A stretch of 64,000 bases of DNA, taken from NCBI RefSeq assembly GCF_037975245.1, contig NC_092575.1, positions 23,727,841-23,791,840 on the forward strand, in the 5' to 3' direction. The position numbers were made by a program, and so were the translations under genes. The stretch is from Apostichopus japonicus. Lineage: Eukaryota; Echinodermata; Holothuroidea; Aspidochirotida; Stichopodidae. Below the pieces are notes generated by a model that had not been told where the DNA came from, searched no databases, and saw nothing but the letters and a program-made list of their open reading frames with translations. Of the stretch, positions 3,831 to 64,000 are shown in pieces (positions within the stretch are counted from its first letter, which is position 1; each line of letters begins with the position of its first letter).

Positions 3831-4101
3831 AGTGACATCTTTACCTTTGATAACTTCCTGCTGCGCTCAGAGTCATTGATTGTGAAAGATGACTGTAAGA
3901 AGCTACTTGACTACTTTGAAGTTCCAGCTAAGGAATCAAAGGACATTATTAAGAGTGATGCACCCTTTTCTTCTCTTGTCCACCATCTCAGAGAGGCAGG
4001 GAAGGTCTCTGTTTATGACATCAGCCATTTAATGACAGCATGCTCTGACAAAGGACTGAGTAAATTGGTGGCAGTATTGACTGTCTACCAACAAGCTATA
4101 G
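3831..4101 (+). CDS. Exon 1 of visible set: first DED-like domain
   Basis: A T-rich tract ending TTATAG precedes 3831; donor GTAAGT follows 4101; the exon ends after the first base of a codon. The 90 residues have a DED pattern: amphipathic helices, then LVHHLREAGKVSVYDISHLM, matching the helix 4-5 region of DEDs where a leader helix is followed by a G-x-(I/V)-S turn. The translation stays open upstream to the acceptor, so this is an internal exon and the true start lies further left. Call rests on pattern recognition only. Confidence 0.75.
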
Positions 4102-7100
4102 GTAAGTTTATATCAGAGAGCTTAAGAAGTTGAATATGTTGTGAATCACAAAACATTCAAACTCTTGCCCACACAAAGAATAAAATGATTTGAGCTAATA
4201 TTGTATTGTTGTAAAGTACTATTTGGGGGCCTGGAGGGGATCTTGGGGGGGACAATCCACGCAAATGAAAGCGGAAATCCGTCCAAGTTGTTTAACTGCA
4301 ATCTAATCCACAAATTGACAGCATGCACGAACCTAGATGAACATGCAGCATACAAAAGGATACAATGAGCTGTAATGGAGCAGTAATGGAGCAGTAAAGG
4401 AGTAGCATTTAACAAGATGTATGAAACATGAATAAAACAATATACTGTATGGTTCCTTGCAATATACCCGGCTAACTATTGTCCACCAACACTCTCTAAT
4501 TAAATAGTTAAGAAGTAGCAACCATAGTGCATGAGAACCCCACCATTGTAACTCTTGAATTTCCTTTGAACTGATCTGACGGTCCACAGGAATTATGATA
4601 TACCCCAATTGACTAATAGGAAACATGATAAAATAATAACAAATAACAAATAACGCAGCAGATCAGAACTGCTTCAATCACATCCTAACAGTCACAAGTG
4701 AAGAATACAAGAACATAATACCCAACTTGATCATACCCCTTTAATATGAATGTCAAGTTATGATGAATACAAAGATGAATACCAAATTAATTAATAACTA
4801 TGTCTTTACTTTAATCATTATTCATCACCAGAATTATTTTTGAATACAAGCCGGTTATCCATTCATTTTACTGTACTTGCATTTGTTCACATGAAATTCT
4901 CTGTACACATTATTTTGTATCTGTACTGCATACTGCTTTAAGGTAATGCTTGAATGATGAGAACCAAAGAGCAACCCCATTAATAACAATTAAGCTTAAC
5001 AAGTTAATGGTTAAATGACATCCAAAATACAAATACAGCAGAATATGCCCTGACATGACTACTCTCAACTCACCAGACCACAACCAGGTAAAATTCTTTA
5101 ATGTAGGTGTATTATGATGAGACGCTACGTCTACAGACCCTCTGAACCATCAGGAATCTACTGTAAAGAAGTTATGATAATAACCAACAGTTGTACTAGC
5201 TATTAACACACTACCAACACAACCAGACACTAACCTGCAGCTATACATGTCAAAAGTAACAAGCTGTGTTGAAATCCTGACACAAATATTTACAGCAACA
5301 ATCAAGAAATAAAAAGAACAAACAAAATACAATTTAAGAAGTAATTAAAGAGTAGAGGTAACAGCTTATTTCATATAAATTCCTGGCACAAAGCTTATAT
5401 TCACTGCTTATCCTAGCACAAAACTGACAAAAGTGTTACAGAACATTTTGTTTCACTATGTTGCTTTAATGCTGGCATGCACTAACACTATTGTATTGAT
5501 TAAGAACAACAAAGTACTACAGTACTAACTTTCCACTGCACTGCCCAGAAACAAATACCAACATATATATCTAACTCAATATACAGAAATTATGATTAGA
5601 GTACAACAATGTAAGGTCTACAATATTGCTAACCTAACCTTAAAGGTACACACTTCCTTAACACTGTGGAGATCTACCTAACACTGAACACCCCATTTTG
5701 AATGCATCTAGCCACATATGAACATATAATTGACAATTACTGACTCTTTAACCTTTCTATAGAACTAAGAAGTAGCATAATTGATAAAGCAACAATATAC
5801 ACTCATAAACCCTAGAACTAAACTCTTCTCTCAATGAACTAATTATTGTTAACAATTAAATGAAAAATTTGATGGCTGTAGGCACTCTGAGCGATTGATT
5901 GGTAACAAGCTGTGCTGAACCTGACACAAATATTTACAATATAACAATCAAAATGCAATTAAAGAAGTCACTAAAGAATAGAAGTACTGTAACAGCTTAT
6001 TTCATATAAATTCCTAACACGAAGCACATATGCACTGTACCACCTAGCACAGAAGTGTTACAGAACATTCAGCCAGTTGGGACAATTTCCTAATGCTAAT
6101 ACCTCCCTAAACTGTACTCCAATATCATGCTTCAAAGCACTGGTACTGTAAAACAGTTCCTAACCTTGATCTGATAGAAACATGATATTCATATTACTCG
6201 TACTCACAATACGAGTGCTCTGAAGCGGGACATGAAACTACAGTATAGGAAAATTGTCCTAACTGGATGGAACACGTTGCTCCACTATGCTGCTTAAATG
6301 CAGGCATGGACCAACACTATTGTATTGATTAACAACAACAAAGATTCACATTGTAAGCTTTCCACTGTGCTGCCCAGAAACAAATACAGTACCAACATAT
6401 ACCTAACTCAGCATAGATCCATATCCAGAAATTATGAATTGAGAACAACCCTGTGTCTACAATACTGTTAACCTAATCTTAAAGGTACACACTTCCTTAA
6501 ACACTTTGAGATCTCCCTCACACTGAACACCACATTTTGAATGCATAGCCACATATGTACACATAATTGACAATAACTGACTCTTTAACCTTTCTATAGA
6601 ACTAAGAAGTAGCATAATTGATAAAGCCACACCATTAGTCAGCCATGCATTTATCATGGGTCATCTCAACCATGAACCTCCAATATATACTCATAAACCC
6701 CAGAACTAAACTCTCATAGTACTAATGTTAACCATTAAAGGAGAAATATGGTAACTGGAGGTACCTCCAGGAAAGTAGTTTTTGAAAACTTCTAGCAACT
6801 ATAGCGTGCTTTAATTTGGGTCTTGTACTGACTACCTTTACAGTAGGTGGCCAAAATAGTGTTAAAGGCATTGAAGACTCGCCCAAAACCACATGCCGCG
6901 CTCTGACAAATTTAACTTTCCGTTGCTTGCAAGTAAAGTTTTCTGCTTGTCGCTACAAAATGCAGACAGTAATGGAACGTGATACCTTGTTATCTTTTAT
7001 CTTGACCTGAGATGTCCATCGATCCTATGTACACTTTGTTGTGGGTATTTACCGTAGCTGCATGTATTGACTGTACACTAGTGTCTTATTACCGATGGTA

Positions 7101-10100
7101 GCAAGCTGTGCGTGTATTTTCCGGGATCGATGGTGGTGTCTAACACTTGTAACACCTCATTTGAAACTAGGTCAGATTACCGGCATGAGACGTTTCTTTG
7201 TGTGCAAGTCTTCAAACCCTTTAAGCTAATGAAATACAGAGTCAATAAACACACCAGTTATTCAACTTCTCCCACAAGGATGTAAATTAAAGAAATACTT
7301 TGAACTCAACTTCTTGTACTCTTCTCACTGAGAACCAAGACGTCTCCTATGCAGCACAAATTATGAAGTGATTAAACAAAGGAAATGGGAGCACCTGTTC
7401 CTCAACCTATTCACTTGCTCGCTAATACTGATTTTCTTAGAAACAATTAGGAAAGGTATAGAATAGATACATATGCATCGTCTGTGAAGTAACCAATCAA
7501 GGACATGCAGTCAACTCTGCATTACTTTACCTGGCTCAAAGATACCATGCTCTAAGGGGTGCAGCTTTGTACCAGGAGGGAACTGTCATGATGAGTCACA
7601 AACTGTTTATAAGACCTCTCTGAGAGAAGCTCTGTCTTTTATGGTGATCTATGGGAGGCCAATAGGGAACTTACTACGGCAGGCCAATTGTAAAATATGA
7701 AAAACTGCAAATTACCACAGTATTAACATAACTTAATTAACCTATGGTTGATAGAATAAGGACCCTCCATCAATATTCTTTGATACAAATAATGTGATAA
7801 ATGAGGTGGTAAGAAATTGAATAACAGCAATGGCATGTAAAGTACTACACAGCCAGGAAGGAGAATCCAATTTGAATGTTAAAATCATTATGATTCCACT
7901 GTGACATGTTTCATTCAATGTCAAGGTCTTGCATTATAATCAAGTCCTTTCATAATTCTGTAACTTATGGGATATATTCAGAAGTTTGTTTTGTGATATG
8001 TTCAGACAAGATTGGTAAAATGTTGGAATTTCCTTTCCTTTTTGGTTCCTTGCTTTGTCAAAAGGAACCTATGTAGTCAGGTGTGTGTGTGTGTGTGTGC
8101 ATGTGTGACACTTGCTTGGGTACGCTCTATCTCAATAAGGGAAAGTTGAATTGTAGCCAAACTTGAACTATAGATCCGCCGTATGGAGAAGGTGTGCTCT
8201 ATTGTTTTTGGTGCACACAAAGGTCAGTTTCTGTCCAATAAACCCAAAATAGTAAAACTGCAATAACTCCCAGTGCCAATGTTCGACAAGGTTGATATTT
8301 TGGGGAATATTTTCAAACTTAACGGTCATGTGATCCAAGGTCACCAAAGGTCAATTAATGATATAAAACTAGTATTTTGGGGGGAGGAAATGGGCAAAGA
8401 AAAAATGTTTGAATTTCTACAGTTTTGATGCTCTATTTAGGTCTCACAGATCAAAAATGTCAATGGGTTGACCCCCTGGTGACCTTTGTGTGTGAAGTTA
8501 TGTATACAAGTTCAAAGTTAATTTTTAGATATGCAATTAACTCCCAATGCCAAGGTGTGTCACGGTTGATATTTTGGGACAAGTTGTGAATGGGGTGGTG
8601 GAACATTTTCAAACTTAACGATCTGAGGTCACCAATGTTATCATATCTGTTGACCCGCTTGTACTGTACCTGTACAGTAGGTGACGTTACATTTCTTACA
8701 TTTTCGTCGCCATATTCAGATCTCAAAAGTGCCTTCTGATCAAAAATCCGATCACAATTTGTGATCACAAAAGTGTTGGCTACAGTGTTGGTTACTTTAC
8801 ATGGGTACATGTAGGACCACAATTACTTGGACTTATTAGACTATTTGAGCCCAATCTTGCTACAGTATGATAACATTATGTGTATTGTCATATACCCCTA
8901 TGCAAGGAACCACAGTGCCCTTGGGCTCTTGTTAAATTTTGTAATTTAGTATCCTTGATATATTTGAGGATCATTGAAAGAGTTCAACTTACTGTAGTTA
9001 AATTCCTCAGAAGCAGTGCCAAATTCAACACCAAGGAAAGTGAAAGATTAGCATGGCCACCTCAAATAACATTGTAAAGTTGAACCAAATAAGGGCTCAC
9101 TAAATTTGATGTAAATTTGTCAAAATATTTTCCTGGAAGTTTTTACCGCATCAATTTTTAAGACACATTGAACTGTATTCATTTACATCACTAAATCTCT
9201 TGGGTGGAAGACAATGTTTAACCATGTTTGCATCTTATATGTTTGTTTCAGATTCAAAGCTGACCAAGAAAGTACCAAAGGATCAACTAAAGGAATCTAA
9301 AGACAAAAGGCAGGAACTCTCTGACAAACTAACTGAATCAGAATATGAAAAACAACAGCTCACTGGAAGACTAAAGACAACAGAGGAGGAAAGAAACCAA
9401 CTGACTGTAAGACTAAAGACAACAGAGGAGGAAAGACAACAATTGAAAGATACATTGAAGGCAACAGAGGAAGAAAGACAACAGCTCACTGGAAGACTAA
9501 AGACAACAGAGGAGGAAAGAAACCAACTGACTGGAAGACTAAAGACAACAGAGGAGGAAAGAAATCAACTGACTGGAAGACTAAAGACAACAGAGGAGGA
9601 AAGACAACAATTGAAAGATACATTGAAGGTAACAGAGGAGGAAAAACAACAGCTCACTGGAAGACTAAAGACAACAGAGGAGGAAAGAAACCAACTGACT
9701 GGAAGACTAAAGACAACAGAGGAGGAAAGACAGCAATTGAGAGACACATTAAAGGCAACAGAGGAGGAAAGACAGCAATTGAAAGATACACTGAAGGCAA
9801 CAGAGGAAGAAAGACAACAGCTGAATGGAACACTAAAGACAACAGAGGAGGAGAGACAACAGCTGAATGGAAGACTAAAGACAACAGAGGAGGAAAGACA
9901 ACAGCTGACTGGAAGACTTAAGACAACAGAGGAGGAAAGACAACAATTGAAATATACATTGAAGGTAACAGAGGAAGAAAGACAACATCTAAATGGCAGT
10001 CTAAAGACAACAGAAGAGGAAAGACAACAATTGAAAGATACATTGAAGGTAACAGAGGAGGAAAAACAACAGCTCACTGGAAGACTAAAGACAACAGAGG

Positions 10101-13100
10101 AGGAAAGAAACCAACTGACTGGAAGACTAAAGACAACAGAGGAGGAAAGACAACAATTGAGAGACACATTCAAGGCAACAGAGGAGGAAAGACAACAATT
10201 GAAAGATACATTGAAGGCAACAGAGGAAGAAAGACAACAGCTGAATGGAAGACTAAAGACAACAGAGGAGGAGAGACAACAGCTGAATGGAAGACTAAAG
10301 ACAACAGAGGAGGAAAGACAACAGCTGACTGGAAGACTTAAGACAACAGAGGAGGAACGACAGCAATTGAAAGATACATTGAAGGCAACAGAGGAAGAAA
10401 GACAACAGCTGACTGGAAGACTAAAGACAACAGAGGAGGAAAGACAACAATTCACACATAGATTGAAGACACTGAAGGATGAGAAGGACGAATTACTTCA
10501 GCAGCAGAAAGAGGTTAGACTTCACATAGCATGTGATTATAGATAACTGATGACCAAGTTACCTGACTTGGGTCATGAGAAATTTAGTCACTTTGAACAA
10601 GACTACCCTTCTGCTTGATCCATTAGTGTAAAGTGAATTTTGAAGTTACCATTTGCAGAAATAATTATTGCAAAAAATATTTTCAGAACTAAGGGAATGG
10701 TTATTATATCTAACAGTAGATGTTAAATGATGAACATATTAAGAGCTATTTGTCTCAAGAATCTTATACATTCTTGATGTTTAGTTCATATGATGTACAG
10801 TTGCTGTCACTGTATTAATATATAGGTCAAAGTTCATTTGTGGTTCAGAGAGTCCAATCAGAACATGCACAGGTAAAAGTCTTTAATCCCTTTATCTCAA
10901 GAATAGAACTTTCAGAGAGTATTCATTTCATACTGGAATATGCTCTTTTAATGTGGAAGTTTGCTACTCAGCTGAAGTTAAACTGTATTGTTCTAATTGT
11001 TTAGTTACAAGTGACAGTTTACATTAACTAGCAAAACTAAACAATGGAATTTGTCATGTGCAATGGCAAAATATGTAGTACATTAAAGCATATTACATAA
11101 CAGTACAATATAAAATTAATTCAACTGATATTTATCATTGAACATCTGTCCTTCAATGTGATTGGCCTACATTCCTATTCTAGAACGGTAATTCCACCAT
11201 TCCTGGCAATTCCTTTTGAAGGCAATTTGGTTACAGACAGGCTTGGGGCGATTACATCTGAATGTAATCGATTACGATTACCATTACTTGAGAACGTATG
11301 ATTACGATTACGATTACAGCCTAAAGTTGAAGTAATCGATTACGATTACATTGTAGTGTAATCGTGATTACAATCACGATTACATTGTGGTTACTTACAC
11401 AATCCTCTGCATATCTGTTTAATATAAGTCTCTGTCGGGAAATAGGGCAATGAAATAGGGCAAAGGAAGGGCATTTACAGTATTACGGACAAAATTGTGG
11501 AAGTACTGTATATCTACAACTCCTACCAGGCATTACACATTTATGCCTTAACACGTTTAAGATGTGTAACCCATAAGTCCAGTAAAAATACAATTTAAAC
11601 AGACAAAGAGTAAACAGACATATACTAAAGTAAAACAAATGAAGATTTTCATGCAACACTATATTTTGTAAACTAATAATTTCTGCATAGCAGCAAAACT
11701 AAAAACTCTTTTACATTATAACCCAAAATAAAACTAAACAGCTTTGAATGGGGCATTCCACAGTACATGGGACATGGAAGGCCAAAGTAAAAGTAAATTA
11801 TTTTCATCAAAAAGTGCTCAACTCTGGTAAAGCAAATTCTGATCCACCAAATTCTAGAAGCAGGAACACTTCTTTGGTCACACTAGTAAAAGCCAATAGT
11901 AAGAATTAGTTTTAATCATTTCTACTAATTTTGCCCTTCTCATTCAAATTTCACTGTAATCATAAATGTAATACGATTACGATTACTTTGCCCTTGTAAT
12001 CGATTACGATTACGATTACTTTGTAATTTTCACAAAAGTAATCGATTACGATTACTTCAAAAAATGTAATCGATTGTAATCGATTACGATTACTGATTAC
12101 GATTACCCCAAGCCTGGTTACAGATCTCAGCACTAATTTATTGTAAACATGTGATTCCTCTGAGCCAGGTAGTAATTTTGCAATAGTCACACCCTCAAGT
12201 ACAGTAGGTGGTCAAAAGCTTATCAGTTCAGCCTGTCTGAAAATAAGTGTGAAGAATGTTGTCAACTTGAACAATGTTCTCCCTTCAGAGACAGGCTACT
12301 ACATAAATGTTTGATTCCTTGCCGAAGGCAGAAGGAACCTATTCGATGGTGATGGCGTGTGTGTGTCTGTGTGTGGGTGCGCTTGTTTGTATTCTGACTG
12401 AGGACTTGAACAAAAGAATTCCCGGTCCTCAGTTGTGATTTCTAAAAAATCACTGTGTCCTCGGAAGAATTCTATTGTAATGGGGTATTGTTTAGGTTAG
12501 GGTACATGGATTTGAATAACGGAAAAAACAATGCGGTCCTCGGTCTGAATGTAAAACACACCTGGTTGTGGGTTTATGTATGTGACGTCTTGGCTTGTAA
12601 ACACTATATCTCAAGAGCCTAACATTGCCTAAAATTGAAATTTGGTATGTAGGTAAGTAGATGGTTCATATTGTCTTTCATGGAGGTCAAAGGTCATTTA
12701 AGGTCAAGGTATGAAAACCTTTTAAACACAATTTCTCAAGAATTCAAAGTTGCTTGAACTTCAAACTTAGTATGTGGGTAGCCATTAGGTATTAGATGTT
12801 ATCTAACCTTTTTCATGGAGGTCAAAGGTCACCAGAGATCAAAGGTCACCAGAGATCAAAGGTCACCAGAGATCAAAGGCTAACAACCGTGTAAACACGA
12901 TATCCCAATATGAAAAAGTTGCTTGAACTTGGTATGTTGGCAGCCCTTGCTGAGCTCTATTGTTTTACATGTATGTCAAAGGTCAGTTGAGGTCAAGAGA
13001 GGTCAAAGTCTGAAAACCTTGTAAACCCGATATCTCAAGAAGTGAAAGTTGCTTGAACTTTATACTTTAGTATGCAGATAGCCCTTGGTGGTAAGATGTT

Positions 13101-16100
13101 CTCTGTTATTTTTCATGGAGGTCAAAGGTCATATTAGGTCTGAAAACTTTGTAAACATAATATATCTCAAGAAGTACAACTTGCTTGAACTTTAAACTTG
13201 CTATGTTGGTAGCCCTTGGTGAGCAGATGATGCCTATTGTTGGTTTCGATGAACATCGTAACCTTTGCAATCATGATGGCTATGTGTGTACGTATATGTG
13301 TGTGTGAATTTGTGACGCCCAGCTTGTTAACACGATAACTCAAGAAGGGAAACTTTGACCAAGTTCAAGAAGCTTATTTTTTTGTGTTGTTGTCAAAGGT
13401 CATTTGAAGTCACTAGGGGTCAAAATGTGGAAACCTTGTAAACACCATATCTCAAGTAAAGACACTTGGGCAGACATCATATTTAGTGTGTAGAGGTATA
13501 GTAACACACTGAGTTAAAGAAGCCTATTGTTTTCTGTTGAGGTCAAAGGTCATTTAGGGTCACTAAGGGTCAAATTGTCAACACCTTGTAAACACGATAT
13601 CTCAAGAAAGGATGCTTGGGAACATCTCACGTTTTACTGTGTAGATGTACCACATTGAGTACAGGAAGCATATTGTTTTTGGTGTTAGTCAAATTTCATT
13701 TGGGGTCACCAGGAGTCAAAATGTGGAAATCTTGTAAACACAATATTTCAAGAAAAGAAGCCGGGGCAGACCTTATATTGAATGTGTAGAAGTACCACAT
13801 TAAGTAAAGGAAGTATATTGTTTTCTGTGGAGGTCAAAGGTCATTTAGGGTCACCATCTTCAATTGTGAAAGCCCTAAACAATAGCCCAAGAAAGGAAGT
13901 TTGGGCAGACCTCACATTTCTTGTGTAGAAGTACCACATTAAGTACAGGCAGCCTTTTGTTTTTGGTGGAGGTCAAAGGTCATTTGGGGTCACAGGGGGT
14001 CAAAATGTGAAAACATTGTAAACACTATATTTCGAGAAGGGAAGCTTGGGCAGACCTAACTTAAATGTGTAGACGGACTACATTTAGTACAGTAAGCCTA
14101 TTGTTCATGTTGAATGTCAAAGGTCATTGGGGTCACCAGGGGTAAAATTGTGAAAACATAAACTCGATATCTTTAGAAGGGAAGCATGAGCAGACCTCAT
14201 ATTTAAAGTGTAGACGTACCTCATTGAGTGCAACGAGCGAATTGTTTTTGGTGGAGGTCAATGGTCTTTTAGGGTCACCAGAGTTCAAATTTTGAAAACC
14301 TTGTAAACACGATATCTCAAGAAGGGAAGGTCGGACCAATTTATATTTAGTGTGTACTGTAGACGTACTACATTGAGTACAGGAAGCCTTATGTATTTGG
14401 TGTAGGTCAAAGATCATTTGGGGACAACAGGTCAAATCGTGACAACCTTGTAAACATGATATTGCAAGAAAGGACAGATCTCATATTTGGTTTGTATATG
14501 TACCATATTAAATTTAAGGAGCCTATTATTGCTTTTGGTGGAGGTCAAAGGTTATTTGAGGTCAACAAATGCCAAACATTTACTTCAGTGCACTTCACTA
14601 CCCTCTTACTGTACCTGTCCTTTCCACACTAACACATCTTCCTAAACATAATATCGCAAGGGCAGCTTGGACAGATCTCATATTTGATATGTAATTGTAC
14701 CACATTGAGTACCAGAAGTCTTAATGTTGTAGGCGGAGGTCAATGGTTGTTTGAGGTCACCAGGGGTCAGCTTGTGAAACCATGTTTAACACAATATTTC
14801 ATTATTAAATCAGGACTGATGTCATATTAGTATGTTGATGTATCTATCAAATTTAGTACCAGAAGCTTGTTGTTGAGGTCAATGGTCATTTCATGGCAGC
14901 CTGTGTCATTTTGTTTGTCATATCACACTGCTTCTCACTGTATTACTAATATCAAGTATGTTGTACACCCTCACTATACATTACATCAGATTCAGAAAAT
15001 AGCTCATGTTACATCATCGAAACCACTATGCATTTTTGCATTCTGGTTTTTCATGGAGGTCAATGTAGTTTGAGAAATTTGAAAATGCAATCACTTCAAA
15101 AGTTGCGACTTCAAACTGGTATACATAGCCATTTGCTCTTTACATGTGTACAGTTTTCCTTGAGGTCAAAGTTCAATTACATGTTACAGTCAGAATGAGT
15201 CTGATTATGCAGAAGTGAAGGTTTTTTTTGAGCAGCAAACCTCTTTGCATAGGTATGAATTGCTCAGTTCTGCAAGACTTGCAATTTCTGCTCAGCAATT
15301 CAGATCGTTGTAAAATATTGCAACTAAAGTTTCTTCTCATATTGGCAAGGAACCACTAAGTCATTTGACTTTCTTGTTATTTGTGGCAAGAAACCACTGG
15401 GAGGTGCATCCTTCTTGTCTCATGTACTGTGTTGTTTACATGACAGGAACTGGAAGAGGCTAAATCAAGTCTGAAAGCTACAAAAGATGAACTTGTGAAG
15501 TCACAACTGGAATATGCCAAAGAATCCATGGCCTTACAAGAGGTCCTGAAGCAGACTAGGGAAGCCTTGAATCAGCAACAATTGGTAAGTATGATTATTA
15601 AAGTATAGTGTATCTGTAGTTAGTATACCACCAGTAGCAAGTTAAGTGTGGTTACAAAGTTAGCAAAATAATGTGACTAGACCATTAATGTGTTGAATTT
15701 ATTATAACATTATCCACTGTTGATGGTATTACTATGTGACAACATATGGTACATTTTACTACAAATAGTGTGAAGTGTATAATGAGTACATTCACCTAGA
15801 TGCTAAAATCAGTTGCTTTTATCAGCTAATTATATGCTCAATTGGTGTAACTTGACAGGTGACAGAAAGGAAAACAGAGGTTCTTTTAAAAGTTTCAGTA
15901 CACCAAATAAGATATCTTTCCTATTTTGTTTATTTTCAGGCTTCATCCGTTTCTGTTATGGAGGAAGAAACCCTACTTGAAGAACATGAAACTCCAGACA
16001 TATCACAGCAATCAACTTTGGCAGGTAGGATCTCAATAAAAAGATAATTACTGCTGCTGGTTGTAAATTTCCAGGCAGTTTAATGTTACCTTATATAAGT

Positions 16101-19100
16101 CTGTTTATCCTTAGAAAGTCCTACCTGGAGATCTTCACAGCTGTCAGTGGAGATGTACGGAGAGGGTAGAGGGGGTGGGGGGGGGGGGGGTTGGTGGGGT
16201 AGTGACTTGAGTCAATTTAAGTAGTGTAGAATGGAGTATCTAATGTCTATTATTTTAAGATATTAAAAGTCAAAAGAGCTCTGCAGAGATGTAAATACAT
16301 TAAGGAGTATCATGGAAACAGGTTAAATTTTTATGATTCCTTGAATCTTTGCGATGGTGATGACGTGTGTGTGTATGTGTAACTTACTCGTAAACGTCAG
16401 AAGGAAAACTGGGGTACATTTCACATTTGGTATGTAGGTTCCCCTTAGGTAGATCTGGTTTGGGATTGTTGTTGGCAGTGGTGAAAGGTCATGTGGGTCA
16501 TCACAGGTCAAATTATGTCAAACATTGTTTACACAATAATATCTCAAGAGGTGGAAGTTACAGGTAGTTCAAACTTGGTGTGTAGCTTGCTGTTGGTGAG
16601 CAAAGGATCTTTAGTGTTTTTTATGTGAATGTCAAAGGTCATAGGAGGCCAACTGATGGAAACATTGGGACAATCTATAAACATGATGTCTCACAGAAGG
16701 TATCCTGTTCAAATTTTATATATATGTGGATTGTGGATTTCCTGTAATTAGTTCAGCGAATCCTATTGTTTGTGGTGAAAGGTCATTTTGGGTCAGCAGA
16801 GGGCAAAATGTGATTATATCAAAAGTGCAATATCTCCATAACCAAAATATTATAGGAAGTCATATATGCATGGTATGATAGCCTTGTGTATTTTATAGTT
16901 TGTACACAATATGATACATAGGTCAGAGTTCATTTGAGTTCACTAGGAATGAAATGTGAACACTATGTAACTACAATATATCCAGATAGGAAACTGCAGT
17001 AGCTGGTAAATATGGCTATGGCTTCTTTATAATGAGTACTGAAAACTATTGTTATTGGTGGACGGTACAGGTTATTTGGGTTCAGCAAAGGTTACATTCT
17101 GGAAATTTGTAACATTTCATCATAAGATAGGCAGCTTCAGAATAGAGCAGAATATCATAGAGGTATATGACTTACCTATAATGTGTACAAGAGCCCAGTA
17201 ATTCTTTGTGAAGGTCAAAGGTCAAAAAAGTGTAAAAACCTTGAAAATACTATAGCTGGATAATTTTGTTTTCAAGAGAGACTTATACATTAATTCAAGT
17301 CAATGGCTAACAGAATTTAATTTATGAAAATCTTTCTTTATAATTAGGAATGTGGTCTGTAGCGTTTGGTTTCAGCATGGCTTTTTTGTGCAAGGACATG
17401 GTGTACATAAAAGCACATAATCCTCTGGTAGGCATGCGGTCACTATCTAATACAAACAAAATAACACATCTAGGTATCTGTTGTATATCTGATCCAAGTT
17501 TTAGCAATTTTAATTTAACTAAGTTCATTTAGGAGTAGAACATACACCCATTTAGGAGATGTGTAAAAAAAAACATATGAAGCATGGAGGGTCATGTGAT
17601 GTGCTCCATGGTAACAGTTATAATTTCTATCATATATAACCAAAAATAAGGACATGAACAAGAAATTGAATTCAACGGTACATTAGATCTTCATCTGGCT
17701 AGATATCTACTGAATACAGTGACTGTGTCAGGGGAAAGTAAGCTTGAGAGAACCGTGCTAAGCACGGCTCCTACAGGTTGAATCACACTGAATACAATTG
17801 GTGAAAGTTACATCTTAGATACTCTTTGACAATGGATTACAGAGGATGGGACAGGAAGTTACTCTGTCCACATATTTAACTTTCTCCTTAAACAGAGCTG
17901 GGTTAAGCTACTAAGAAATGACCACACTAGCGATGACATCATTGGGAATGACATCATACTGAAAGTTATTTGATTGGTAGAGATCTGACATCCCTCGCAC
18001 AGACAGATGTAGGGTTTCTGTTTTAGAGACTTACTGTAGAGGTCAAAGTGTTAGTGATCTACGAGGACTTAGAAGTTCGAAAAGTATATGATTATGTTGA
18101 TGGCTTGTAAATAGAAACTGTTAGTAACTTTCTGGGAAGTGTGATGTAAGAGGACTTCCTGTCTGTGCTTCTATAGTAGCTATTGCTGAGAGATTGTAAA
18201 GGTGAACACAGGGTAAGGGGAAGGGCAGGTAGAATGGTAAAATGCTCTCTATAGATCAAGCATTTTCTGACACAAAGAAAATGAATCTCAACATTGTCAT
18301 CAATTCATCATCCAAACTAGAGCAATTAATATCAAACATGCAGTAAACGCCTGTTAAAGGTGTGGTGTTTGGATACAAAACTCCTACAACTTTGAACTGA
18401 CACAGGGTTAAATTAACATACATGGTTAGGAGGAGCATGGCCTGCATGGTTGGTATGTTTATATAGTGTATAGTATGATGTCCAGATGTATACGTTGCTG
18501 GGGTCAACAAGCAAATAACAAAGCATATCAACACCACCAATGTCTTTTTTTGTGAAATATTATAGAAAATAAAAGCCTCACCTAATTCCTCGTTATGATG
18601 TTTCGACTTGTCGGTAATCAAGTGAGGTAGATCACACCAGGATCCTTAAATCTGGAGAGTATTTATAATTTTGAAATATTTTTTATGTTAAATATCATCA
18701 AAAGGCTGTTGCAATGTTTTAAAAAGGTGCCAGTAATGTTGCTATGGTAACACTGAGGCTTGTTGTGTAGATGGGCAGTTACATCAACAGTACTTTAAAA
18801 AGCAATTAAATTTATTCATATTCCACACAATTTATACAGTAGTTTATTCAGCTATAGAACTGATTTTAAAGAAAAGTATTTTGTTGTTATATATCAATGC
18901 AATACAAATCAATCTAATAATCAACTGATAGCTAGGAAAATGTGATCTCATCTATAGTCAGTTTATCAATTGTCTTCTTGTGCTGAGTGTAATCCTTAAC
19001 TCTATTTTATCCTTTTATTTTCATTTCAGCTGATTACGGCAGATTAATGGTCAATGTTGCCGATGATCTTACTCTTGACAGCACTCTGAAATTAGCAACT

Positions 19101-22100
19101 CTGTTTGGTCTACCACCGGCAGAAACTGATATGTTACGCAGGGTTTCTCTGATAGAGACACCAGGAATCACTCTGATTAACTTCATGAAGACACGAAACA
19201 TCATCAACTTGTACGATGTCACTAACCTACAAAAGGGTTTGGTTCATATTCAGCTAAACCGAACAAATGAAAACCTTTTAGCTCCATATCAGTCTAAAGT
19301 TGACTCCTTTCAGTTTGAAGAATACCAAGCACCAGAACTGCTTGCCTGGCCTGGTAAGAATGGATACAACGTTGTAATCAGAATACATAAAACAAAAAAT
19401 ATGCAGTACAGAAAAATCTCTAGAAATGTGTGTGAGTCTGGGGTTAATATTCTGCTTTCAGGCAATATGTTATTTTGAACTAGTAATTATAATGATGTTT
19501 GTATGGTTAAAGTAATTATAAGTGGATCTTTTGACCATTTATATGTTCCCATTTGGTTTGTTTCTTTATAGTAAAAAGATTGAAAATACAAAACTTTAGT
19601 TCCCAAAGATTAGCCAATATTTGTAGGATTCATTTGAGCCATCTGATCACTCTCAGAGAACGATGCTAGATTCTTTGATATTCCCGTAGTCTGCTGCCAC
19701 TCGTCAAATTCTCTATCAACATAAAGCTTGTGTTGCATATCTATTACATTTTGTATTATGATTCCTTCAATAATACCTCTTTCATAAATCAATTGCAGGG
19801 CTTTTGTATTGATGTAGAAATTTTAATTAATGTGGCTCAGTATGGCAATTTTTTTTTCCATGTCAAGGCTTCAGTTAATAGTGTTTGTGTTTCCATTAAT
19901 ATTCTATTTTTAGTTGATGAATCAACTCCATCACAAGGTGAAAGAGAGGAATATCATGACCATAGTAAGGAGACTTTGATGGAGAGAACCGAGAAAGAGG
20001 AACTACCAAAGCAAAGAAAAGATTTACAAATACTTGAAATGAGGCAACATTATTCATACATTGAACACAGGATAAAGTATGAAGGTGGAACTATTAGCAT
20101 CATGGGGGTACATCTGACTATTCCTGAAGACGCTGTATCCTTCGATCATGTAATTGCTGTTAAAGTGATCTATGATCCTGACATACACCTCCCTGGAAGT
20201 GCTCATAGGGGCAGAATGACACCGCTACTAAAACTAGAGCCAGAAGGACTCGTCCTCAACAAGCCAGCCCAGCTGACTATTCCTCACTCGGCTATTATCC
20301 CTGAGCCAGATCGACATGATGTTATGATCTTCACTGGTCTGAAAGATAAAGAAACTTCACAAGAAGGTAAAGATGGAGACCAATACACACTTTAAATGCA
20401 AATTGTTGAATGTACCAGGAGATGTACAATGAGTTATATGATGGAATCAGTACTGTAAAATATGTCTTAGTTAATAAGCTCTTGATATTAACTCTAATTA
20501 AGATTACCAAGTAATTTAGTTTGTATAATATTACTTACTATAGGTGAAATAACTTGGACCGAAGAGAAATCTGTTGATTGGAAACTAGACCCGGAGAAGA
20601 TCAGTCTTGATATTAACACCCTGAGCTACGTCTTTGTTACTTTAGTCAGCCAAGAAACAGAACAGAAGCATATATTCCGTATTGTTCCATTTATCGATGG
20701 GATACTTGATGCCAAAGATGATGTCTTAATAACTGTTTGTTTCTGTAAGGACAGTGATGAAGAATTCAAGGTGAGGATAATCTCCTGTTACCATGGTGAT
20801 ATATGTACCAGTTTGAGATCAGTTCTGTTTCATATTGTGAATTTTAAGTCGGTTACTGGCATTGTACTCTCTTTCATGATTTGTACAGTGACTATTATCG
20901 TGTTTCACTGACAAATTATGAAGTGATTTGTTAAGAGCACATTGCTTAGGTCAAAATTTCATTTTGTAACAAATTATGTGGTTCCTCAAAAACATCCACA
21001 AGACGCATAACAAGTACTTAGATGATTTGATACCCGCATGCAACATTAGTAATGTGAGCAAATTAAGGAAACTGAGATGATGTTACTTGCTAAAGCAGTA
21101 TTGACTTCTCTGTACATAATGAAGGCACAACAAGTTGCATAATTTAACATCTGCTTGGTTTTTGGTTTCAATGATAATTGTAACCTTTGCATTCATAATG
21201 GCATATGTGTGCACGTTTGTGACGCCCAGCTTGTAAACAGGATATCTCAAGAAGAAAAGCTTGGACAAACCTCATATTTAGTGTGTAAAAGCACCACATT
21301 GAGTACAATAACGTATTGTTTTTTTTTGAGGTCAAAGGTCATTGGGGTCATCAGAGGTCAAATTGTATAAACCTTGTTAACATGATATCTCAATTTTGGA
21401 AGCTTGGGCAGATCTCATACTTGGTATGAAGGTGTATAATATTGATTAAAAGAAGCATATTGATTTTGGTGGAAGTCAAAGTTCATTTGGGTGCAACAGG
21501 TCAAATTGTGAAGCCTTGTAAACATGATATGGTAAGGGAACATTGGACAGAACATATATTTGGTTTGTAGATGTACCATATGAAATTTAAGGAGCCTATA
21601 TTACTTTTGGTGGGCAGAGGTCAGTGCTTGTTTGAGTTTACCAGGGGTAAAATTGTGAAATCATGTTTTATGCAATATTGCAACAAGACATATATCATAT
21701 AAGTTGATGTATCTATCACATTTAGTACAAGAAGCCTGTTGAGGTCAAAGGTCATTTCAGGATAGCCTGTGTCATTGTGATTTATTGTTTGTCTCATCAC
21801 ACTGCTTTCACTGTATTACTCAGATCAATTATGTTTTTCACCCTCACTATACATTACGTCAGATTCATGAAGAAAACTGCTGTTACATCATCGAAACCAC
21901 AATGCATATATGCTTTCTGGTTCTCTTTTGAATTTACTTTGCCATGTTCTTATGTTTTAGTTGCTGTTAGAGGACCACCAGTCCAAACTCAGTTTAGGAA
22001 ACTATTCAACATTTCAAGTTACCCGGACATTGAATGATGGCAGAGATTCTGCTTCTTACATCGATCTGATGATGTCATCACCCGGTGATAGTTACCATCT

Positions 22101-25100
22101 GATGAAGGAAGAATCAACAAAGGTTTGTAATAAGCAATGCTTTTAAAGTTTGTCTTCTAACATTACAAGACTTGTAGTTAAGGATTGGTTTCCTGAAGTG
22201 AACCAAAATATTGAAGTGGTTAGAATTTCTGCCTTACAACTACTAGGGTACTGGTTAAAAAAAACCCACCAGGGACCAAAATCTATGCAAAACTTCTGCT
22301 GTGCAGTGTTGTTGAGCAGAATCTTGCGTAGGTTGTACTTCCAGTAAGTGAATCATTCAATAATTGATAATTTGGTCCGATATTCTTTCTCAAGGTTTCT
22401 CAAAAAGCTTCAGTCACCATGGCTGCACTTTGGTGATGATGAATGAATGGGGTTGTCTTTAATTGGATAACCTCCCTTTGTTTTTGAGGAAATGTTCAGA
22501 TGCTGTGGCAGTGTCAGTCATCAGATTGGGATGTTGATTAAGTGGCTGTTCTGTGAGCAGGAATGATAAAGAACACGTTCTGCCTGCTTAGTAATTCTCT
22601 GAACACTCATCAAAAGTTACGTGAATATTCATAGCTTGAATATATTACCAGAGGGTTCCTACTCCATGGAACAAAGTAAACCTATTAAAATGTTGTTATG
22701 GAATTACAATCTTCACCATCTGCCCATGAAATCTAAGGATTTGTACATGACTAGATGTATTGGTTCCTTACCAGCATTTCCTTATTCTTATATCTTATAT
22801 GTGGCACTGTTTCATTGAATACTTATCAAGCATTCTCATCCTCAGAACATGATCTTCTAATATCTTTTATCCATTAGCATGTAGACATTGATCACCTATG
22901 TGCTGCCAGTAGAGTCTCTCATCAGTTCAGACTTAAAAGAAACAATGATGGAGATACTACCATGGTTGATGTGAAGTTAAAAGTATCACAACATGAAAAG
23001 AACCAGACAGCCCTCATCCTCCAATCAAAGGTGAGTTATTTTTGCTGATTGTCTTCCAGCGGCATCTTCTCTCTTCTGATTTTTTCTTTGTTTATTCATG
23101 TCCTGCCGGGTGGAAGTCTTGCAGCTGTTTGCAAGCTGATCTAAAAATGAACTCTTTTGTGTCAATGAATAAAGTCATTGCTCTAACTTAATTATAGTTT
23201 ATTCCATGTCACCTTCTCTCATGGATCCTTATATTTGTAATATTGTGTACTATGCATATTTGCAATTCAATTAATCTTTTGTTAAATTGCTATTGTTTTG
23301 CCGACTCTTTCATGTTGCTTTGTAAATAATGAGTAACTCAAAAAGCAAAGAATTGCTGAAGAAGTGTACTTATCACCCGTGTGTTATTACATGCACATGT
23401 CAATAGTGATGGGAAACTGATTTGTAGGTATGTGGTACCAATTAATGAATAATGCATAAATAATAGCTATGTTGCTATCATCAGTCCTTAACTTTTGGAT
23501 TCCAAACATTTATTATGTGCTGTTCCATGTCTGTTTCAGCCCTATTTTTCTACATTAATGTTCCTACTTTAAACCTAGTCATTCACATGGTGTGCACTCT
23601 TGTGTGTTGAACATACTTACATTTACAGTTCCCATTACTCATATTTTTTTTGGTTTAATTCTTCAGGTGAACAACATTCTCTTATCTCCAAAAACCCAGG
23701 AAACTCTTTTTAGAGGACTGCACCCAGGTGAGTATTCAAGTGGAAGTGGAACAGATGCGTGAACTTTGAAAGTCCACCCTGGCCTGTATCTAAATGTAGT
23801 TGGCACAAAAAATGAATGATATTTATCCTATACATACACCAGGCAACTGTGTATTAGTGGAGATGAAAAAGTAAGCACACATAGAGAACATGGTGAGTGT
23901 CTACGTAGACCTGAAAAGGTAGAAGCATTCGGTTTTAGCAGTAGACTCACCTGAGTGTTACTTATATCAACTTAGTATTGGGAAACATTTTAATCACATA
24001 AAAACTTCTGATTGAAACAAAGTACATCTTGATGCTGAACCCGAAAGATTTCTTCTATGTCCCACTTGCAAACTTTCATTTTTAATTAGTGTGCTCAATT
24101 CCCTCAAAGCAACTATGGAATTGAAGCTGTATACAAGACTAGAATTGATCGAAAAGATAAGGGCTTAAAGCTGAAAAGTTGTACATAAGTTGTGGACAGT
24201 ATACTTAACCAATTTAAATGAGTGCATGCACAAGAGGTGTGACTTCCATACCAGCCTTCCACATGCAGGTTTGCATGCTTCTTGTGGGCCAGTAATGTAC
24301 TTGTGCATGTTAGGTGTGAACATTGCTCATTGTTCAAACTTGGCAGTCAATTAGCATAGGCACTCTCATGTTTATATGTGATATCTAGTCTTAGCTATAC
24401 TTTTTTAAATGTAAAGTGGATGTCCTCACTTTCAGATTTACCCAAATATGAACAGTTGAGAGGAGACATTGCAAAGCATCTAGAGAAACAACATTGTCTA
24501 AAGCTAGGCGTGTATTTTAAGCTCACGCCAGTAGAAAATGAAACAATTCAGACAGCAGCAGAATCTGGAAAGATGCTGATGAAAATATTGGATGAAAGAG
24601 AGCTCATCATGCCAGACAGAATGATCAGACTTTATGAAGGATTGAAAGCTATTGACTTTGATAAGGTGGCAAGACTGGTGCTGGAGTACATCGATGCATT
24701 ACAGGAGAAGAATGGAAAGGAAAACGAAGGAGAGAAAGATGATAAGAAAATGGTTTGTACTTTGTAAACACTGTTAAGAATTTGACACTTTACGCTTGTA
24801 GTTATCAAAACAAAAGTCACTTTGTATAAAATCAAGATCTTAGAATATTAGCAGGTCTAGTACAGAGTGTAATTTCTGATATGAAAAAGTATTATTTTTG
24901 TTGTCATGCAAGTCTGTCTAAAAAGTCATCGTTTACTAATTGTAACAGTTTCTTTCTTACTCAAAGTTACGTTTTTAGAGATCAAGTTGAGACTATTCAC
25001 TGAAGCTAAATTCAATGCAGTTATTAGTTTTCTATCTTCATAAAAGTATGATTAAAGAAAATATAATTTTATGAACAATTTGTAATATCTCATCATTATT

Positions 25101-25691
25101 TCCAGGCAAACATTCCAGAGAAACAGGAAGTCATTTCAGAAAGGGAACCAAAGTTGTCATTAAATTTCAAAATTTTGATTCAAGAGGGATACATGAGACT
25201 GGATGTCCAAAGAGCCTTGAAATTGTCTCATGGAAAACTGGACCTAGGAAGACGGCTGTTGCTGCTTGCTAAGGAAGAGCACGGTAAAGATACCCTCTAT
25301 ATTCAGCTACGCGGGTATTTCTTTTATAATACTTCCGGATTTAATCAATTTCACACTGTTGTCTCACAATTCTGGATATTGTTCGCATGAAACAGGATCG
25401 GTTTAATTCACTTTATGTAGAATAGTGTATTTAACATATTTGCATTTTCTTTTCTTTCAACCTTACAACCATCATCAACTCTTTAGATCAGCAAAAGCAG
25501 AACTTATCAGAACATCTTGATGTAGACCAATCTACCTTGCTGGCAAAAAATTCACTGATACTTTATCTCCCACGAAGATCACAGAATTGGAAAATGTCCT
25601 TACGGAACAAAGGAATGAAGAACGTGCAAAACTTGTCAGAGATTTTAGACTGAAAAATCCTGTAGTTCAAGCAACAGTGTTCCCAGAATAA
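3831..25691 (+). CDS. DED-coiled coil-DED-ZU5-UPA-DED-UBA-like scaffold protein, 13 visible exons
   Basis: Joined exons: 3831-4101, 9252-10513, 15447-15584, 15940-16024, 19030-19353, 19914-20366, 20544-20770, 21961-22122, 22878-23030, 23667-23727, 24436-24752, 25106-25283, 25487-25653. Every intron starts GT and ends AG, and all junction phases agree, giving about 1265 residues. Numbering from the first visible codon: DED 8-88, coiled coil about 100-557, DED 590-675, ZU5 749-836, UPA 870-1025, DED 1052-1135, UBA-like 1171-1207. ZU5-UPA is known from PIDD, UNC5 and ankyrins, where it is usually followed by one death domain; DEDs mediate homotypic assembly in apoptosis and innate immunity. No signal peptide or membrane segment is visible, so a cytosolic adaptor role is inferred. 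The initiating exon was not found; the first visible exon begins in phase 0 after a splice acceptor. Nothing suggests a catalytic activity. Confidence 0.82.
4102..5250 (+). other. Intron 1, proximal part
   Basis: Intronic sequence after donor GTAAGT; no gene or clear repeat recognised. Confidence 0.55.
5256..5868. repeat. Local tandem duplication, copy A
   Basis: Starts GTAACAAGCTGTG and shares extended near-identity with 5902-6748, including GCTTATTTCATATAAATTCC and ACACTCATAAACCC-type blocks. This copy lacks the MITE present in copy B, so it preserves the empty site. Confidence 0.8.
5902..6748. repeat. Local tandem duplication, copy B, MITE-bearing
   Basis: Homologous to 5256-5868 but longer by a 194-bp inverted-repeat insertion at 6073-6266 and a smaller insertion near 6630-6675. 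Confidence 0.8.
6073..6266 (+). mobile_element. 194-bp MITE, copy 1
   Basis: Terminal inverted repeats CCAGTTGGGACAATTTCCTA on the left and CCAGTTAGGACAATTTTCCT on the complement of the right. Flanking sequence continues into the duplicate block, whose other copy lacks the insertion. GAACATT on the left and GAACACGTT on the right may be a diverged target duplication. A second copy lies in reverse orientation at 58761-58964. No coding capacity. Confidence 0.85.
6749..8040 (+). other. Intron 1, middle part
   Basis: No supported gene. Open frames here have no domain match or splice support. Confidence 0.5.
8044..8934 (+). repeat. Hairpin-ended GGTCA-rich interspersed repeat, copy 2
   Basis: Same family as 1336-2846: hairpin at 8044-8069, TG microsatellite, GGTCACCAAAGGTCAATTAA motif, and an identical tail GCAAGGAACCACAGTGCCC ending near 8934. 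It is shorter because fewer internal units are present. Confidence 0.8.
9252..10513 (+). CDS. Exon 2: long repetitive coiled-coil exon
   Basis: The acceptor GTTTCAG precedes 9252; it enters in phase 1, matching the preceding donor, so the split codon becomes GAT. The donor is GTTAGA after 10513. The exon encodes about 421 residues dominated by 26 copies of a 14-residue unit, consensus TEEERQQLTGRLKT, with variants KDTLKA, NGRLKT and RNQL. Fourteen residues equal two heptads, with Leu at repeat positions 8 and 12, as expected for a long parallel coiled coil. The antisense strand is also open over most of this exon, an artefact of the 42-bp period; I do not regard it as a gene. Confidence 0.85.
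9380..10471 (+). repeat. 42-bp coding minisatellite with 420-bp higher-order repeat
   Basis: Twenty-six in-frame 42-bp units. Units 7-16 of the array match units 17-26 position by position, including the rare KDTLKV and EEEKQQL variants (9629 versus 10049), so a ten-unit block of 420 bp was duplicated. The period is a multiple of three, so gains or losses keep the coiled coil in frame and change only its length. Confidence 0.93.
10514..11229 (+). other. Intron 2, proximal part
   Basis: AT-rich intron after the coiled-coil exon; nothing recognised before the hAT-like element. Confidence 0.5.
11238..12116. mobile_element. 879-bp non-autonomous hAT-like element
   Basis: Terminal inverted repeat CAGGCTTGGGG at 11238 and its complement CCCCAAGCCTG ending at 12116. 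The flanks carry a perfect 8-bp target duplication GTTACAGA (11230-11237 and 12117-12124). TIRs starting CAG with an 8-bp duplication are typical of the hAT superfamily. Subterminal regions are packed with GATTAC/GTAATC motifs in both orientations. There is no transposase, so it would depend on an enzyme supplied elsewhere. Confidence 0.9.
12313..15382 (+). repeat. Large hairpin-ended repeat with tandem ~145-bp monomers
   Basis: Head hairpin near 12313-12339, TG microsatellite, then about 15 diverged monomers of roughly 145 bp between 12600 and 14900. Each monomer typically holds TTGTAAACACGATATCTCAAG, a GTACCACATTGAGTACA-like stretch and a GAGGTCAAAGGTCATTT-like block. A second internal hairpin head lies at 13242-13263, so at least two elements are nested or tandem. 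The tail (GGCAAGGAACCACTAAGTC) is near 15352. Confidence 0.78.
15447..15584 (+). CDS. Exon 3: end of coiled coil
   Basis: Acceptor TGACAG, donor GTAAGT, phase 0 at both ends, 46 codons. The residues (ELEEAKSSLKATKDELVKSQ and onward) are charged and Leu/Ala-spaced, continuing the coiled coil without the 14-residue repetition. Confidence 0.8.
15585..15939 (+). other. Intron 3
   Basis: 355-bp intron between coiled-coil and linker exons; no other feature seen. Confidence 0.7.
15940..16024 (+). CDS. Exon 4: acidic linker
   Basis: Acceptor TTTTCAG, donor GTAGGA, 85 nt, entering in phase 0 and leaving in phase 1. It encodes a Glu/Ser/Thr-rich linker, including VMEEETLLEEHETPDI, with no recognisable fold. 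It joins the coiled coil to the second DED. Confidence 0.72.
16164..16195 (+). repeat. G-rich tract in intron 4
   Basis: Contains a long uninterrupted G run flanked by GGTGGGG motifs; potential G-quadruplex on the sense strand. Confidence 0.8.
16336..17240 (+). repeat. Diverged array of the ~145-bp monomer
   Basis: TG-rich head, then repeated AATATCTCAAGAGG-like and GTCAAAGGTCAT blocks matching the 12.6-14.9 kb monomers. Exact AGGTCAAAGGTCA occurs at 17212-17224. Confidence 0.65.
17241..19029 (+). other. Intron 4, distal part
   Basis: No supported gene. A 121-codon antisense open frame at 18256-18621 lacks any recognisable domain and is ignored. A short inverted repeat CCGTGCTAAGCACGG lies at about 17754. 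Confidence 0.5.
19030..19353 (+). CDS. Exon 5: second DED-like domain
   Basis: Acceptor CATTTCAG, donor GTAAGA, phase 1 at both ends. The residues after ADYGRLMVNVADDLTLDSTL form a six-helix DED-like pattern, with LINFMKTRNIINLYDVTNLQ matching the helix 4-5 signature also seen in the first and third DEDs of this gene. The C-terminal residues (EYQAPELLAWP) are a linker. DED rather than death domain is chosen from the leader-helix plus turn pattern; a profile search would settle it. Confidence 0.75.
19354..19913 (+). other. Intron 5
   Basis: 560-bp AT-rich intron; no other feature recognised. An open frame running through the acceptor is intronic. Confidence 0.65.
19914..20366 (+). CDS. Exon 6: ZU5 domain
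   Basis: Acceptor ATTTTTAG, donor GTAAAG, phase 1 at both ends. After a charged linker of about 50 residues comes a ZU5 domain: GGTISIMGVHLTIPEDAV, then VKVIYDP, then RMTPLLKLEPEGLVLNKPAQ and LTIPHSA. These match the ZU5 consensus of a G-G beta start, IPxGA-like turn, (L/M)TP-x-(L/V)-x-x-x-P-G and KP-(A/V)-x-L-x-(L/I)-PH-x-A. This is the most confidently identified domain of the protein. Confidence 0.9.
20544..20770 (+). CDS. Exon 7: ZU5 end and start of UPA
   Basis: Acceptor TTACTATAG, donor GTGAGG, in phase 1, out phase 0. It encodes a Trp-containing linker, then VFVTLVSQETEQKHIFRIVP and LITVCFCKDSDEEFK, matching the first strands of UPA domains (short hydrophobic strand, VPF, then (V/I)xVxF). 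At the position where PIDD-type proteins have the His-Phe-Ser autocleavage motif, this protein has Asn-Thr-Leu-Ser, so autoproteolysis is not predicted. Confidence 0.8.
20771..21960 (+). other. Intron 7, holding a monomer-array fragment
   Basis: Contains the hairpin-headed repeat at 21164-21770 and otherwise nothing recognised. Confidence 0.6.
21164..21770 (+). repeat. Hairpin-headed repeat with ~145-bp monomers, intron 7 copy
   Basis: A 22-nt hairpin at 21164-21185 (arms GGTTTCAAT and ATTGTAACC) precedes a TG-containing tract and three to four monomers with GATATCTCAAG and GTCAAAGGTCATTGGGGTCA blocks. Exact AGGTCAAAGGTCA occurs at 21329-21341 and 21742-21754. Confidence 0.75.
21961..22122 (+). 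CDS. Exon 8: UPA domain middle
   Basis: Acceptor TATGTTTTAG, donor GTTTGT, phase 0 at both ends, 54 codons. The leading helix (LLLEDHQSKLSLGNYSTFQV) and strand-turn pattern fit the helix after the first UPA strands. Placement is supported by frame continuity with ZU5 upstream. Confidence 0.75.
22123..22877 (+). other. Intron 8
   Basis: No gene or repeat recognised; short open frames lack support. Confidence 0.6.
22878..23030 (+). CDS. Exon 9: UPA domain end
   Basis: Acceptor ATCCATTAG, donor GTGAGT, phase 0 at both ends, 51 codons. The alternating hydrophobic residues in HQFRLKRNNDGDTTMVDVKL and the strand ending TALILQSK resemble the closing beta strands of UPA. Confidence 0.75.
23031..23666 (+). 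other. Intron 9
   Basis: No other feature seen. Confidence 0.6.
23667..23727 (+). CDS. Exon 10: short linker exon
   Basis: Acceptor ATTCTTCAG, donor GTGAGT, 61 nt, in phase 0, out phase 1. It encodes VNNILLSPKTQETLFRGLHP, a short linker between UPA and the third DED. Both splice sites are strong and the phases fit the neighbours. Confidence 0.72.
23728..24435 (+). other. Intron 10
   Basis: No other feature seen. Confidence 0.6.
24436..24752 (+). CDS. Exon 11: third DED-like domain
   Basis: Acceptor CTTTCAG, donor GTTTGT, in phase 1, out phase 0. After KYEQLRGDIAKHLEKQHCLK the residues include MLMKILDERELIMPDRMIRL and a final helix ending LVLEYID, the clearest DED-like helix 4-5 pattern of the three. 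It stands where PIDD and UNC5 carry a death domain. A lysine/glutamate-rich tail (KENEGEKDDKKM) follows. Confidence 0.8.
24753..25105 (+). other. Intron 11
   Basis: Short AT-rich intron; nothing else seen. Confidence 0.65.
25106..25283 (+). CDS. Exon 12: UBA-like segment
   Basis: Acceptor TTTCCAG, donor GTAAAG, in phase 0, out phase 1. The segment LIQEGYMRLDVQRALKLSHG followed by KLDLGRRLLLLAKEEH resembles a UBA three-helix pattern: G-(F/Y)-x5-V-x-x-AL-x4-G-x-(L/V)-x3-x-x-LL. UBA domains bind ubiquitin or pack against partners. The match is suggestive; a profile search is needed. Confidence 0.75.
25487..25691 (+). CDS. Exon 13: last exon with probable one-base frameshift
   Basis: Acceptor ACTCTTTAG, entering in phase 1. 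The frame read from exon 12 ends with TGA at 25651-25653 after 55 residues, but its second half is atypical. From a run of six A at 25545-25550 another frame reads well-formed charged helix (TELENVLTEQRNEERAKLVR) and ends in tandem stops at 25689-25694. One more A in the run would join the two frames, so a lost base or assembly error is likely. Confidence 0.7.
25545..25550 (+). other. A6 homopolymer, likely indel site
   Basis: Run of six A within the last exon; the reading frame that looks conserved changes here. See the last exon entry. Confidence 0.6.
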
Positions 25692-63963: not shown

Positions 63964-64000
63964 CTACCACGTGTGGTACATGGACGTGCTCGATACTGGC

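Follow-up and report, generated by a model that had tools for sequence, protein, structure and literature searches.

A ZU5 gene with DED-like domains from an expanded gene family of the sea cucumber Apostichopus japonicus

ZU5-UPA is a known lock on Death domains and CARDs: it packs on the death domain in UNC5B, and the FIIND packs on the CARD in CARD8 and NLRP1. UNC5B and UNC5C-like have the order ZU5-UPA-Death, and UPA is present in PIDD1 as well. Combinations of ZU5-UPA with Death, CARD and TRADD-N are described in the available portions of several papers (PMC3210808, PMC8195603, PMC9573974, PMC2575513). In CARD8 and NLRP1, whose context is mammalian innate immunity, the FIIND is a ZU5-UPA that precedes a CARD; the cleavage site is SF/S in these two proteins and HF/S in PIDD, and UNC5B has Leu at that place (available text of PMC3210808). 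PIDD1 is made up of LRR, two ZU5, Peptidase_S68 and Death (PMC9573974, in the portion available), and TRADD-N proteins occur fused to UPA-ZU5/FIIND (PMC8195603, likewise). An initial sequence-only reading of the gene described here held that ZU5-UPA is followed by one death domain, as in PIDD, UNC5 and ankyrins, a statement that omits the FIIND-CARD proteins NLRP1 and CARD8. Full-text literature searches, judged from titles and abstract starts, returned no described ZU5-DED family. One dog FIIND sequence is labelled 'ded' in the available part of PMC3210808, so the FIIND/DED label is not wholly without precedent.

The window analysed here is a stretch of 64,000 nucleotides (contig C15, 23727841-23791840), and the genome searched was the assembly of 671,581,487 bases in 35 contigs. 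The window contains a real animal gene whose model is incomplete at both ends. Its features, and the start of the next family copy, are as follows in window coordinates.

3831..4101, plus strand: exon 1, DED-like domain 1; entered in phase 0 and left in phase 1, no ATG near its start
9252..10513, plus strand: exon 2, coiled coil, read as a repeat of ~26 units of 14 aa (two heptads)
15447..15584, plus strand: exon 3, final part of the coiled coil; found between exons 1 and 5 in 46/48 paralogous pairs
15940..16024, plus strand: exon 4, acidic linker
19030..19353, plus strand: exon 5, DED-like domain 2
19914..20366, plus strand: exon 6, ZU5 domain (Pfam PF00791)
20544..20770, plus strand: exon 7, ZU5 end and start of the UPA region; Leu-Ser where an alignment by eye puts the FIIND cleavage loop
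21961..22122, plus strand: exon 8, UPA region as judged from position; the second module of locus L009 has parallel exon phases
22878..23030, plus strand: exon 9, UPA region by position
23667..23727, plus strand: exon 10, UPA region/linker
24436..24752, plus strand: exon 11, DED-like domain 3; 54 close copies, DED profile 91.6% versus Death 2.2%
25106..25283, plus strand: exon 12, UBA-like domain; matches the Cbl UBA by profile, with further exons after it in relatives
25471..25691, plus strand: remnant of a terminal DED-like domain 4, core missing and frame changed (tblastn against full copies)
63932..64000, plus strand: first bases of the 5' exon of the next family copy (match at C15:23791772)

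Thirteen exons in consistent phase had been proposed. This holds for exons 1-12 (3831-25283), which have AG/GT borders throughout and keep the frame at 11/11 junctions. It fails at junction 12 and in exon 13, which when read in phase runs into a stop at 25653; the end at 25691 belongs to another frame. The long coiled-coil repeat noted earlier is real, with a unit of 42 nt (14 aa) present in ~26 copies at 9347-10450. The introns, which include some of 5.2, 4.9 and 3.0 kb, are at 12700-14900 and 16400-17200 full of diverged repeats with ggtcaaaggtcat-like words. A separate short-repeat array at 44038-45109 is open in several frames on both strands.

The ZU5 call for exon 6 is clear (PF00791, 35.6 bits where the cut-off is 21, E 1.1e-8), and ZU5 was matched in 6/6 modules when the window and five relatives were taken together. 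A profile built from these six modules found ZO-1 (4.3e-8), UNC5B (3g5b; 4.8e-8) and ankyrin-2 (0.009) in the PDB with only the ZU5 part aligned, the 3g5b alignment spanning chain residues 13-90 only. UPA was not matched by Pfam or by profile in the window exons or in the six-module set, and the UPA region is therefore a putative one, assigned from position, exon phase and size. Of the ZU5-UPA pair previously proposed, the first half is confirmed and the second stays putative. At the place of the FIIND cleavage loop in the first module, alignment by eye gave Leu-Ser in 10/10 readable copies of 12 examined (the window, its duplicate L029 and 8/10 further loci), and Pro-Cys in the second module; the Phe-Ser autocleavage motif of CARD8, NLRP1 and PIDD was absent from the copies read. 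Pfam scans of the family domains found no CARD. For exon 12, a profile of 10 copies had the Cbl UBA as its best PDB match (E 0.0021), with Cbl or Cbl-b in 6 of the top 7, and Pfam gave only UBA_DHX29 (0.16) in 1/10 copies. This is modest support for a UBA-like assignment.

For DED, Pfam gave no match in the exons of the window itself, and of the 45 genome-wide matches to PF01335 none falls at a family exon; in the family domains DED stays below the cut-off, with best per-member E values of 6.5e-4, 0.0056 and 0.012. On the exon-5 alignment of 11 members, Pfam Death reached a best E of 7.3e-5 (3/11) and DED 6.5e-4 (5/11). We compared the domains by hhalign with profiles of 12 DEDs and 14 Death domains from the same genome. 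Exons 5, 11, the terminal domain and exon 1 scored 97.0, 91.6, 95.4 and 81.0% against the DED profile versus 5.7, 2.2, 59.0 and 8.6% against the Death profile, the terminal domain thus resembling Death too (59%). Column shuffles of the DED profile reached the observed score in 0/60 cases per query, exon 1 being represented there by a single sequence. Exon 1 is homologous to the exon-5 domain (95.0%); on its own it scored 7.6% with the DED profile, 26.8% with the terminal domain and 4.1% with exon 11, and in this last comparison 1/60 shuffles reached the score. Its assignment as a DED is the weakest, resting on an alignment of 7 copies with shuffles run on a single sequence.

Structure prediction gave a six-helix model for exon 5 (pLDDT 91.2, pTM 0.81) that matches the DEDs of FADD, caspase-8 and cFLIP; its top 16 structure matches were 15 DEDs and one ankyrin G Death domain. 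A single-sequence AlphaFold model of exon 11 (pLDDT 53) was set aside, and exon 5 alone modelled well. In phmmer searches of single exons against the PDB, exon 11 returned nothing and exons 1 and 5 one weak unrelated match each, and the exon-11 profile found no PDB chain. A profile of the terminal DED hit 4 unrelated chains, the best of them a designed repeat protein matched through a short motif, and these were rejected. DEDs carry an RxDL motif in helix 6; by eye, no exon held a clear case. Taken together, profile comparison and the exon-5 model support a predicted DED over a Death identity for these domains. The earlier DED calls are upheld on that footing, short of the Pfam cut-off and least securely for exon 1.

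At its 5' end the gene probably continues beyond the window. Exon 1 is unlikely to be the start because it has no nearby ATG, there is an in-frame stop directly upstream, and a conserved exon lies farther upstream. Comparison with three paralogues revealed this open exon of 285 aa at 585-1439 bases before the window, with a phase-0 donor that fits exon 1. The donor is GTAAGT, phase 0, in 4/4 copies; the copies are 80-87% identical, and their sequences diverge beyond it. The exon has 115 matches in the genome, of which 54 were used for the window's family and 52 for a family on contig C12, leaving out 9 others (5 of them fragments). A same-strand 5' exon lies upstream of 50/52 exon-1 copies, and one exon-1 copy has an opposite-strand one within 25 kb. 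By eye it resembles a beta-propeller; Pfam matches are weak (best Glu_cyclase_2, E 0.0023, in 1/2 copies) and PDB matches unconvincing. A pattern scan of the window and loci L081-L084 found neither RING nor B-box.

The gene is one of ~54 paralogues with a common exon order. Exon 11 has 72 genome matches, 54 of them close (57-100% identical) and located on C15, C19, C23, C16 and C11; exon 5 has 102 (57 close, 73-100%), exon 1 has 60 (~50 close), and exons 3 and 4 together have 69. Weak matches were dropped before copies were counted (18/72 for exon 11, 45/102 for exon 5, 8/60 for exon 1), as were 19/69 for exons 3 and 4, these last being exon-4 pieces. Exon 5 lies upstream of 51/54 exon-11 copies and exon 1 upstream of 48/57 exon-5 copies, with exon 3 between them in 46/48. 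The order of exons 1, 3, 5 and 11 is thereby repeated in ~50 paralogues on both strands, each copy being confined to a single strand. Pairwise dN/dS had medians of 0.25 in exon 12 (8 copies), 0.39 in the terminal DED (6), 0.40 in the second ZU5 (8) and 0.59 in exon 11 (10). L012, which has a stop, was left out of the exon-11 alignment, L018 also out of the exon-11 dN/dS set, and L012, L015, L018 and L027 out of the terminal-DED set. Between the window and L029, dN was 0.015 and dS 0.045 over exons 5 and 7-11, and the exon-6 tail gave 0.018 and 0. The two introns tested in this pair differ by 0.4 and 1.3%, which is below the divergence of its exons 5 and 11, so that exchange between copies has probably blurred these figures. 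The region C15 23.66-23.89 Mb, to which both belong, contains a duplication of ~132 kb, each half of which has two family copies, a truncated one and a fuller one.

The fuller copies reveal what lies beyond exon 12. Among the ZU5 matches listed, at least 46/54 copies have a second ZU5 exon beginning 1.3-2.9 kb downstream of exon 11; the ZU5 and Death lists each hold the best 150 scored of 204 candidates, so absence of a second ZU5 (8/54) is shown only for the window and L029. We fetched 20 loci, 12 of which belong to the window's family. In 8/12 (L009, L010, L013, L016, L017, L018, L020 and L027), four more exons lead to a terminal DED-like exon, and the stretch from the second ZU5 onward reads ZU5-UPA region-DED. 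A stop follows the terminal exon in 7/8; in L027 the 12 bases shown contain none. The second module carries stops or frame changes in L012 and L015, and L011 and L022 had no terminal DED in the stretch fetched. The exon phases of the second module, read from the borders in L009, repeat those of the first, which suggests that fuller members hold two ZU5-UPA-DED units. Linkage across copies shows the predicted order in fuller members to be 285-aa 5' exon-DED-coiled coil-DED-ZU5-UPA region-DED-UBA-like-ZU5-UPA region-DED, the place of the coiled-coil repeat exon being read from the window copy.

The window copy has lost this second half. The gap from exon 12 to the terminal exon is ~200 bases, versus ~7 kb in L009. 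The terminal exon, a full terminal DED in relatives, here lacks ~79 nt of its core; the remnant pieces at 25471-25545 and 25563-25688 (tblastn against full copies) account for 25 + 42 residues of the 99-residue domain, and the acceptor of relatives, still present in L029, is unmatched. L029, the copy from the ~132-kb duplication, carries the same truncation, and the truncation is therefore older than the duplication. The UBA-like piece was earlier taken for the C-terminal end; since the second half was lost from the window copy, and further exons come after the UBA-like exon in relatives, it is not a true end. The architecture first drawn thus keeps most of its domain calls and turns out to be that of a truncated member of a larger design.

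A second ZU5 expansion lies on contig C12, mostly at 19.4-34.2 Mb, with at least 69 matches. Among the matches listed, a Pfam Death domain occurs within 20 kb downstream of 55/69 C12 ZU5 exons and of 0/47 in the window's family. The 5' exons of the two families are related (33-46% identical), and at least 41/52 of those on C12 have a same-strand ZU5 within 40 kb downstream, compared with 0 in the opposite-strand control, again among the matches listed. The two families thus have a related 5' exon and ZU5 in common and differ in the Pfam Death domain downstream on C12. We read this as one ancestral ZU5 death-fold family that would have split into Death and DED branches, each expanded in clusters. 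Pfam DED matches are themselves clustered at 10.2-11.1 Mb of contig C16, which holds 24/45 of the genome-wide matches, 20 of them over the cut-off.

How does this family compare with the described systems? CARD8 and NLRP1 join a module of the ZU5-UPA type to a death-fold domain (available text of PMC3210808), as the family is predicted to do. Unlike them, the window's family has a putative DED in place of the CARD, two modules in fuller members, a UBA-like domain and a coiled coil, and Leu-Ser or Pro-Cys (by eye) at the place of Phe-Ser. PIDD1 and the fuller members both have two ZU5 domains and a death-fold domain, whereas each ZU5 of the family has its own following region and DED-like domain, with no HFS motif and no LRR seen. 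UNC5B is close in its ZU5 (3g5b, E 4.8e-8) and has Leu at the P1 place, as does the family (PMC3210808, same portion); it and UNC5C-like differ in carrying Death, not DED, and no membrane part was seen in the family. Compared with FADD, caspase-8, cFLIP and PEA-15, the family's DED-like domains carry ZU5 modules and are too divergent for the Pfam cut-off. The TRADD-N fusions likewise combine ZU5 modules with adaptor domains in immune-type genes, but there the adaptor is TRADD-N and in the family it would be DED, and repeated modules are not described in the available portion of PMC8195603.

Linkage in many copies shows the window gene to belong, in 3'-truncated form, to a family of ~54 genes. 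On balance, and with no great confidence, we favour the view that the ZU5-UPA-DED units of this family work through a lock mechanism. Pre-assembly of the protein would be the task of the coiled coil and the two leading DEDs, and each ZU5-UPA unit would pack on the DED behind it and hold it closed. An opening signal might arrive through the 5' domain, or through ubiquitin chains on the UBA-like domain, and the freed DEDs would then nucleate a DED filament to which a DED-bearing adaptor or caspase would be recruited. Since Leu stands in place of the Phe of Phe-Ser, the unit should open by a conformational change, like that of UNC5, and not by autoproteolysis. The window copy, which has a single ZU5-UPA-DED unit and whose last DED is broken, could serve as a short form or a decoy, or could be decaying. 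Release of a DED assembly from a ZU5-UPA lock is what we infer by analogy with the described proteins; caspase recruitment and ubiquitin linkage of the window gene are likewise presumed, and the ~fifty family genes may be immune or cell-death switches.

The missing second module, the ~79 nt lost from the last exon, the changed frame and the unmatched acceptor could also mean that the window copy is a decaying pseudogene, in which a deletion took the second ZU5-UPA and the terminal DED was broken; two more family loci, L012 and L015, are broken in the second module. Yet all of exons 1-12 have open frames and undamaged splice sites, the truncated form has been duplicated (~132 kb) with the compared exons open in both copies, and dN is below dS over exons 5 and 7-11. 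We regard decay as a substantial possibility that falls short of an even chance. It is quite improbable that the model joins two or more adjoining genes that are co-inherited (5' exon-DED-coiled coil and DED-ZU5-UPA-DED), as introns of 5.2, 4.9 and 3.0 kb and an in-frame Met at residue 6 of exon 5, a possible start, might suggest, for phases match at 11/11 junctions, exon 1 lacks a nearby ATG and the order is kept in ~50 copies. Nor do we think it at all likely, if slightly less remote, that the protein is a junctional or cytoskeletal scaffold of the ZO-1, ankyrin or UNC5 type that takes no part in cell death or immunity: the nearest solved ZU5 relatives are indeed ZO-1, UNC5B and ankyrins, but four DED-like domains and an expansion beside a ZU5-Death expansion would better fit death or immune genes.

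If the favoured reading of a truncated copy from a family of ZU5-UPA-DED locks is true, a duplicated lock facing DEDs, in a large family whose tested parts are under constraint, would make ZU5-UPA a general device. The ~fifty variants, truncated ones included, are a natural set for testing how such a lock opens without autoproteolysis, and the sister Death-domain expansion in the same genome is a ready comparison. A bolder proposal, which we consider unlikely though worth stating, is that the ~fifty genes encode cytosolic switches, each with the conserved N-terminal exon and twin ZU5-UPA-DED modules, which would be to invertebrates what the NLRP1/CARD8 inflammasome is to mammals. Conformational opening, not autoproteolysis, would let them seed DED filaments, and truncated copies such as the window's would be dominant regulators.

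Two further Pfam domain matches lie in the remainder of the window. A long open frame at 30455-32671 on the minus strand encodes a reverse transcriptase (Pfam RVT_1, E 4.9e-14) in an element that we take to resemble the Penelope type, and a fragment at 32471-32920 on the plus strand is an inverted repeat of the end of this frame. At 47855-48382, the minus strand encodes part of a seven-helix receptor of the rhodopsin type (7tm_1, E 3.3e-12).
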